In this document: positions 960-31,733 of the stretch, in pieces
Layout: each line of letters opens with the position of its first letter
Numbering within the stretch: the first letter of the stretch is position 1
IMG/VR virus record: IMGVR_UViG_3300037296_000115
Span: 1 to 31,733 of that record
Source: a virus
DNA: 31,733 nt
Strand: one strand, 5' to 3'
Translations under genes and position numbers: made by a program
Notes under the pieces: generated by a model
What the model saw: only the letters and a program-made list of their open reading frames with translations
Databases searched by the model: none
What the model was told of the DNA's origin: nothing

Positions 960-1235
960 TTAGCCCTTATTGATTTTCTGATCCCAGCGCATGACGATCG
1001 CCAGCATGTCGCTTGCAGATTGCTTCTGCGCGCTGCGCGGCTCTCCGGTCAGTTCCGCCAGACGCGGCATTTTCTTGGCCCGGCCCAAGGTCGCGACAGT
1101 CAAGGCATGATGCATCCGCGCATGATGCTCCCGCTTAATTCGCCGCCCAGCCCCATCCATAAGGCAAACATATTCCCGCAAGGTCAGACGCCAGAAACCA
1201 TCCGGCGCAAACCCTGCGGAAACATACTCTGCCAA
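960..1235 (-). CDS. tail assembly chaperone, frameshift-encoded C-terminal half (GT-type)
   Basis: The open frame lies -1 relative to the preceding chaperone ORF. Its only start-like codon at the upstream edge is TTG 1235, with no convincing ribosome site. The same frame is open back to the slippery site at 1274-1280 and reads through DVNWADLLAEYVSAGFAP and FWRLTLREY, a Trp/aromatic pattern typical of the C-terminal half of tail chaperones. The likely product is therefore a 221-aa fusion: 117 residues from the upstream ORF plus 104 from this frame. Such fusions bind the tape measure and recruit tail tube protein during assembly, and are absent from the virion. The stop at 960-962 is only 4 bp from the tape-measure ATG. 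Confidence 0.85.
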   Translation of the reverse strand: MAEYVSAGFAPDGFWRLTLREYVCLMDGAGRRIKREHHARMHHALTVATLGRAKKMPRLAELTGEPRSAQKQSASDMLAIVMRWDQKINKG

Positions 1236-1249
1236 CAGATCAGCCCAGT

Positions 1250-1624
1250 TTACGTCGTGCGTCTGGCCCGCTTCTTTTTTCCGGGTGCCCCCCCGGCCCC
1301 GGCAGGCGCAGCGTCAGGATCCGGCAGAGATCGCGCCATCGCCGTCGCCATCTTGTCGCCCATCGCATCCAGCCCGACCGCATCGATCAGCTGACCCGCT
1401 TCTTTCAGCGTCATCCCGTGCTGATCTAGCAAGCCCGCCCAAAGCAAAAGGCGGATTTCCGTAAAGCCCGGCGGATTTTTTGGATCCTCCAAACCGGCCA
1501 AGAATTTCGGCACGCTCTGGCCTGTCGCTTCTTCCAGTTCGCACATCGCGTTTGCAGTGAAAGCCAGCGTAAAATCGACGCCGTCGACGTTCAGGCTTGT
1601 TTGCCCCTTTGCCGCGTTCCCCAT
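1250..1624 (-). CDS. tail assembly chaperone, upstream ORF (GTA-gp10 / Phage_TAC_11-like)
   Basis: This 124-aa protein resembles the family named after gp10 of the Rhodobacter gene transfer agent (Pfam PF11836). It has a short beta-rich N-terminus, then FTANAMCELEEATGQSVPKF near residues 23-42 and an amphipathic helical region. Proteins at this position chaperone the tape measure during tail assembly. The start ATG (1624-1622) overlaps the stop of the tail-tube gene as TGATG, giving translational coupling. The C-terminus GKKKRARRTT is encoded over A AAA AAG, where a -1 shift enters the next ORF. The short form should dominate, with the shifted form a minority, by analogy with lambda gpG/gpGT. 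Confidence 0.85.
   Translation of the reverse strand: MGNAAKGQTSLNVDGVDFTLAFTANAMCELEEATGQSVPKFLAGLEDPKNPPGFTEIRLLLWAGLLDQHGMTLKEAGQLIDAVGLDAMGDKMATAMARSLPDPDAAPAGAGGAPGKKKRARRTT
1274..1280 (-). promoter_or_regulatory. programmed -1 ribosomal frameshift site (A AAA AAG)
   Basis: On the minus strand the heptamer AAAAAAG lies exactly in the X XXY YYZ phase of the upstream chaperone ORF (GGA AAA AAG). This is the same heptamer used in E. coli dnaX. A -1 slip enters the frame of the 960-1235 ORF, which is open from here, and the zero frame ends eight codons later. A run of G and C just 5' (1281-1300) could help stall the ribosome. No 3' pseudoknot was worked out. Confidence 0.88.
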
Positions 1625-30336: not shown

Positions 30337-31733
30337 TAGGGTCGCCTTTGCTTTTCAATCAAACTTTGGTTGTTTTTCTGCACGACCTGCACCGACACGT
30401 TTGCCGCCTCTTGCCGCACATCCTGCAGCGTGACGCCCTCCGGCACATGCAAGAACAGATCCAGCTTACCGCCGCCCATGCCCCCGAGCCGCGTCGCAGG
30501 AATAATCTGCGACCCGTTCGGCAGGTTCACCAACTCCTGACCGCGCTCATTAATGCGGGTCAGACCACCGGACCAATTTGGCGTGCCGTTCGCATTGCCC
30601 GGCAGCGTCAGCGCCGACCCGATCGCCCCAAATAAGCCGCCGCCGCCCGACATGGCAGACAACGCCGCCTTTTGCAGCGACACTTTGATCATTTGTGCCA
30701 GCAGCTGCCGCAACGCCTCCATCGGCTTCATCGCGCCCGTACCGATTTCCGCAAACATATCAGCCAGCGTTGTGCGGCCTGTTTTGGCGTTTTCTTCGAC
30801 AGTCGTGATGCCGCTGGCAGCATTTTCTGCAGCTGCAGCTGCATTTACGTATGCCGCCGCCAAACCATCAATTTCAGTGCGCAGCTGCGGCGTAACAGTT
30901 GTGCCCGCCTCCTGCGCTGCGCTTAACAGTTCGGCCTGCTTCTGCGCATAGCTGACCGCTGCATCGCCCGTCAGTCCGCTGGATCCGGCACCATTCAAAG
31001 ATGCCGTTTCGACCTTGAGACGCGCGATTTCATCTTTTGCGCCCTTTATCGCCTGCTGAAATGTATTGAGTGACGCCGCCGCCGTCTTTGCAGATCCGCC
31101 TTTTCCACCGCCATCGCCGCCCAGATCGTCCAGACTACCGGACAGATCGACATTGCTGTCAGTCAGGCTATCCGCTTCATCCGCTGCAGTTCCCATCACG
31201 TCGCGCAATGCCTGCAGGCTTTTCAACGGCGCACCAGCTGCGGCCACCAGCCCAGACAAGGCCCCGGTCGCCGCGCCAGCTGCCGCATCAGCTGCAGCAG
31301 TCACGCGATTCAATTCCGTGACCATGCCCGCGCCAAGCGGCTGCAGGTTCGTATTGAAAATAGCGTTTAAACCGTCCGTCACGTCCGCAGTGAAGTCGAC
31401 AAATGCCTGCGCCATTGCGGCCAGACCACCGATGAAAAACGCCTTCATCTTTGCAGATCCAGCATCAAATGCCGCTGGCACAATTGCAAATGCGGTGCCG
31501 ATCCGCTGGAACACTTCGACGGCCACGTTTTTCAGCAGCCCTAGCGCTTTTCCAAACCCGCCTGCCTTGCCGACCAGCGTCAGAAACTTTTCGACCAGAT
31601 ATCCGGCAGCGATAATCAGCGCGCCGAAACCGGTGCGCATGATTGCGCCGCGCAACAGCGCCAGCCCGCCGGTCAGGCCCGTTGTGGCCCCCGCTGCCAT
31701 GACGAAACCCGTCACCCAGCGCACCGCCATAAA
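30336..31733 (-). CDS. tail tape measure protein, C-terminal part
   Basis: This part continues the N-terminal segment at 1-955 across the circular join. It includes long helical repeats (about residues 380-620 of the full protein, Ala/Gly-rich) and a hydrophobic segment near the join (FVMAAGATTGLTGGLALL). The C-terminus has a conserved-looking RINERGQELVNLPNGSQIIP motif, common in siphophage tape measures, and ends LIEKQRRP. It is the longest tail gene, as expected. Its stop overlaps the distal-tail-like start. Confidence 0.93.
   Translation of the reverse strand, partial: FMAVRWVTGFVMAAGATTGLTGGLALLRGAIMRTGFGALIIAAGYLVEKFLTLVGKAGGFGKALGLLKNVAVEVFQRIGTAFAIVPAAFDAGSAKMKAFFIGGLAAMAQAFVDFTADVTDGLNAIFNTNLQPLGAGMVTELNRVTAAADAAAGAATGALSGLVAAAGAPLKSLQALRDVMGTAADEADSLTDSNVDLSGSLDDLGGDGGGKGGSAKTAAASLNTFQQAIKGAKDEIARLKVETASLNGAGSSGLTGDAAVSYAQKQAELLSAAQEAGTTVTPQLRTEIDGLAAAYVNAAAAAENAASGITTVEENAKTGRTTLADMFAEIGTGAMKPMEALRQLLAQMIKVSLQKAALSAMSGGGGLFGAIGSALTLPGNANGTPNWSGGLTRINERGQELVNLPNGSQIIPATRLGGMGGGKLDLFLHVPEGVTLQDVRQEAANVSVQVVQKNNQSLIEKQRRP
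31607..31733. repeat. terminal direct repeat, copy 2 (circular overlap)
   Basis: Identical to bases 1-127. It is part of the tape measure and should be counted only once on the circular genome. Confidence 0.95.

Follow-up and report, generated by a model that had tools for sequence, protein, structure and literature searches.

A putative tail assembly chaperone gene pair of the TAC_11/TAC_6 kind, probably joined by a −1 frameshift

Frameshifted tail chaperones are well known and widely conserved in phages, and they have been missed or split in annotation (PMC5009743; PMC10885494; PMC8601537). For an HK97-like chaperone cluster, 6–7% frameshifting has been measured (PMC3711429). We have analysed a candidate for this mechanism in a viral DNA stretch of 31,733 nucleotides (the window; positions 1 to 31,733 of IMG/VR record IMGVR_UViG_3300037296_000115). 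Among the closest known systems is gpG/gpGT of phage lambda (Levin 1993; Xu, Hendrix and Duda 2004, 2013, as cited in PMC5009743). As in lambda, the window's pair is flanked by the tail tube and tape measure genes, and its second open reading frame overlaps the first in a shifted frame, without a good start of its own. Unlike in lambda, the heptamer is A AAA AAG and not the lambda site, and the probable families of the window's pair (TAC_11/TAC_6) are only remotely similar to lambda G/T. The heptamer is that of E. coli dnaX, whose protein is unrelated. The same two families, in the same order, are found in g10/g10.1 of gene transfer agents (GTAs), where, unlike in the window, an ATG for g10.1 frequently overlaps the stop or lies close to it.

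The gene pair and its slip site

The upstream neighbour of the pair is a lambda-type tail tube protein (PF16461, 1.3e-20), and the downstream one is a tape measure protein (tape measure PHROGs, 9.4e-47). The window ends cut through the tape measure gene. Positions 1–127 and 31607–31733 form an exact 127-base direct repeat, which makes it probable that the record represents a complete genome, either circular or circularly permuted. The features of the pair are as follows.

1250 to 1624, minus strand: G part, a putative tail assembly chaperone resembling TAC_11/GTA-gp10, 124 aa, 0 frame, ATG start
1274 to 1280, minus strand: slippery heptamer A AAA AAG, in phase, 31 nt ahead of the end of the G stop codon
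1250 to 1252, minus strand: TAA, the 0-frame stop codon of the G part
960 to 1274, minus strand: T part, a TAC_6-like domain, 104 aa past the junction, predicted to be reached by a −1 slip
1233 to 1235, minus strand: TTG, the sole near start codon of the T frame, lying within the first helix predicted for T; replaced by CTG in the closest relative

The ATG of the G part overlaps the stop codon of the tail tube gene (TGATG). Its product matches PHROG_2115 (tail protein, 7.7e-18) and, under the curated cut-off, PF11836 (TAC_11/GTA-gp10, 0.00014), a family matched by 45 of the 65 aligned G members. The T product matches PHROG_19318, which has no named function (1.9e-18), and PF09550 (TAC_6), again under the curated cut-off (0.00032). 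Among the aligned T members, 21 of 55 match PF09550; PF06223 (lambda minor tail protein T) is matched by a single T relative. A structure search with the G and T models gave no PDB match, and the T model had one weak viral match.

The G part ends in the 0 frame with GGA AAA AAG AAG CGG GCC AGA CGC ACG ACG TAA. The sequence-only reading had placed A AAA AAG in the exact phase for a −1 slip in the upstream frame, and both the phase and the coordinates (1280–1274) are right. It had also described the −1 frame as open into the downstream frame. This frame has no stop from 1313 until the one at 960, and its overlap with the G part amounts to 64 nt. Translating across the slip gives the same junction as proposed there (...GAPGKK-EAGQTHDVNW), and the predicted fusion would have 117 + 104 = 221 aa. 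The heptamer alone is ordinary in the window, with 6 copies of AAAAAAG observed against 3.9 expected. By simple arithmetic, about 0.001 in-phase copies are expected within the 64-nt overlap.

We consider a −1 frameshift that joins the two chaperone parts to be the explanation best fitting all the data, with a probability of about 0.93. That is, the frames 1624–1250 and 1280–960 would be one gene of the lambda G/G-T kind, a well-supported new example of a known mechanism and no new mechanism. Most ribosomes would stay in the 0 frame and stop at TAA 1252–1250, giving the 124-aa chaperone. A minority would slip back by one base on A AAA AAG, where both lysine tRNAs could re-pair on AAA AAA, and would then follow the −1 frame to 960, giving the 221-aa fusion with the TAC_6-like domain. 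If the roles are as in lambda, the short form would bind the tape measure protein and the fusion would recruit tail tube subunits, at a controlled ratio. The sequences themselves show the anatomy, the phase, the conservation and that no usable start is present, while the slip, its efficiency and the roles of both products are what we infer.

Conservation of frame, heptamer and start among relatives

We have searched viral contigs with profiles and obtained 105 loci, which were pooled with earlier ones into 112 loci with both parts. The full 7-member alignments lacked a sufficiently conserved stretch for profiles, and narrower alignments were used. One viral-contig match (L001) was dropped as a 10-residue chance match, and with the tail tube protein as query the viral contigs gave no match. 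In all 112 loci T is in the −1 frame relative to G, and none has both parts in one frame. As the site is a homopolymer run, a typical place for indel errors, the two frames might have arisen by an error of sequencing or assembly in what is really one frame, but the same −1 arrangement throughout the relatives, with differing heptamers, makes the probability of such an error negligible.

The decisive evidence for the predicted frameshift is comparative. In the last 60 nt of G, 79 heptamers of the X XXY YYZ form are in phase, versus 4 and 1 in the other two phases (that is, 5 out of phase), among 100 distinct loci. Since these survey counts take related sequences separately, they measure consistency rather than independent events. 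Over the rest of the G gene the phases differ little (0.073, 0.041 and 0.055 per 60 nt). An in-phase heptamer near the G end is present in 62 of the 100 distinct relatives. In the other 38 the last 60 nt contain no perfect in-phase heptamer, which means that some members of the family must slip at sites of another kind. We have also looked at codon-position variability across the slip site, which shows no clear phase switch there and was not used as evidence.

The heptamers themselves vary. Most relatives have G GGA AAC, G GGA AAG or A AAC CCT at comparable positions, and a Syntrophomonadaceae phage has C CCA AAC immediately ahead of the stop. The occurrence of several different heptamers speaks for repeated selection. 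The heptamer of Paracoccus phage Shpa is A AAA AAG, identical to the window's. In the closest relative (L137/L139), whose G part is 62% identical in the best segment, A AAA AAA stands at the exact position of the window heptamer and T is in the −1 frame. The comparison with relatives that had been proposed for the heptamer thus agrees with the initial proposal. This variety also bears on a fusion made by transcriptional slippage, in which a mixed mRNA population would arise on the A run. The window site is a run of six A, and there are seven in L137, which would suit such slippage. RNA polymerase slippage usually needs longer runs than these, and the sites of most relatives contain no long homopolymer. 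We therefore regard transcriptional slippage as very unlikely.

As the initial reading had said, the downstream frame has only a weak TTG as its start. TTG 1235 is the first ATG/GTG/TTG in the window's −1 frame. It lies 14 nt past the G stop, near enough for coupled re-initiation after TAA 1252–1250, which would give two separate proteins without any frameshift; in some chromosomal GTA relatives an ATG even overlaps the stop. On the other hand, the TTG is replaced by CTG in L137/L139, and 78 of the 100 distinct loci lack ATG, GTG and TTG throughout a stretch that begins 60 nt ahead of the T domain and ends 45 nt into it, so that no strong start is conserved before the second frame. In the T model the first helix begins at residue 12 and the TTG is residue 16, and the TAC_6-like match in the T frame begins upstream of it. 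A protein started there would lose part of the first helix and the start of the match. Re-initiation would also leave the in-phase heptamers unexplained. Since the TTG is not conserved while the slip site is, and since it lies inside the predicted first helix, we have judged from sequence and model that it is not the T start, and re-initiation is improbable, though less so than slippage by the polymerase. Overall, the constant −1 frame, the in-phase heptamers and the lack of a conserved start support the lambda-type fusion by −1 slip as it had been claimed.

The suspicion that such a pair would be mis-annotated as two frames is borne out by several deposited records. The Paracoccus Pthi1 and Shpa and the Caulobacter Kronos records annotate the G and T parts separately, mostly as hypothetical proteins, and the second part is given a CTG start in the Pthi1 and Shpa records. 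The present analysis corrects this annotation, and the survey of about 100 distinct relatives shows which slip signals the family uses.

RNA structure around the slip site

The proposed slip had been called dnaX-type. This holds for the heptamer, and it does not hold for the rest of the dnaX signal. In dnaX a stem-loop lies 5–9 nt downstream, while in the window we have found no unusual structure directly 3' of the heptamer (first 44–71 nt). The Shine-Dalgarno-like element of dnaX lies about 10 nt upstream. The window has GGGGGGG ending 7 nt upstream, whose effect as a stimulator is doubtful, and L137 has GAGG 10 nt upstream of its heptamer.

Further downstream, the window contains one more feature.

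1170 to 1225, minus strand: very stable hairpin in the T coding region, starting 48 nt downstream of the heptamer

This hairpin has 24 pairs, an energy of −37.4 kcal/mol and a z of −8.8. When the whole window was scanned, only one hairpin had a lower energy, and none of the others listed had a more extreme z. At such a distance from the heptamer it is too far for a usual stimulator. L137/L139 keep it with 22 of the 24 pairs (z about −7 in L137). Where the window and L137 encode the same residue, they share the codon at 10 of 11 positions in the outer stem, versus 201 of 370 in the rest of G and T and at the tape measure N-terminus. As calculated on this one sequence pair, such codon identity would occur by chance in about 1% of cases. 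It is suggestive of a synonymous-site constraint in the outer stem.

The hairpin of lowest energy in the scan (22577–22522) is a separate observation. It is a very strong hairpin of the terminator type (GACCCGCCGCG...CGCGGCGGGTC), flanked by runs of A and T.

Among the relatives, those with an NNC CCN site only have a hairpin of z < −2 directly downstream in 16 of 18 cases (mean z −3.6), while the two AAAAAAG sites have no close downstream hairpin (mean z 0.0) and the AAACCCT and GGGAAAx sites are intermediate, with all these z values derived from shuffles that preserve base content only. The survey suggests that weak slip sites come with a close hairpin and strong ones without. This looks like a trade-off, across relatives, between the strength of the slip site and that of the stimulator. 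Folded as a consensus, the close hairpin of the relatives gave 3 pairs only, and we make no claim of covariation and use the energies of the individual sequences. The low pairing of the consensus probably reflects shifts in the register of the hairpin arms between sequences.

In a group of rhizobial-type prophages (L010–L066, for example L025, L031 and L039), the relatives that lack a perfect heptamer have NNC CCN in common, with a strong hairpin immediately behind it. These may use the slip of a single proline tRNA together with a stimulator.

Chromosomal copies and gene transfer agents

We have also searched Alphaproteobacteria with PF09550 and found chromosomal copies (L117–L136, L145–L160). 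In one of these regions, which was inspected, the genes follow the GTA order, with GTA_TIM and Rcc01698_C domains among them; this is the only one of the chromosomal PF09550 loci at which a GTA cluster was confirmed. Of the 35 chromosomal loci, 29 have the second gene in the −1 frame. Heptamers near the stop are in phase in 27 cases and in another phase in 2. C CCT TTC is found in nine loci, mostly 22–25 nt before the end of the stop. When read in the −1 frame, CCCTTTC codes for PF, and selection on the peptide could therefore account for its conservation.

The chromosomal loci also have a conserved PFPW in the −1 frame, ahead of the usual g10.1 ATG; a peptide conserved at this place would in turn have to be translated in the −1 frame. 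Two loci (L125 and L158) have no ATG at the usual g10.1 position. We have found no report of g10/g10.1 frameshifting in the literature searched.

The survey points to a possible frameshift in gene transfer agents. Tentatively, and at slightly less than even odds, we suggest that the TAC_11/TAC_6 −1 frameshift is an ancestral signal still used by GTAs, where g10 and g10.1, so far regarded as two genes, would be one frameshifted gene, and that the conserved distal hairpin of the present phage may act as a second element controlling the product ratio.
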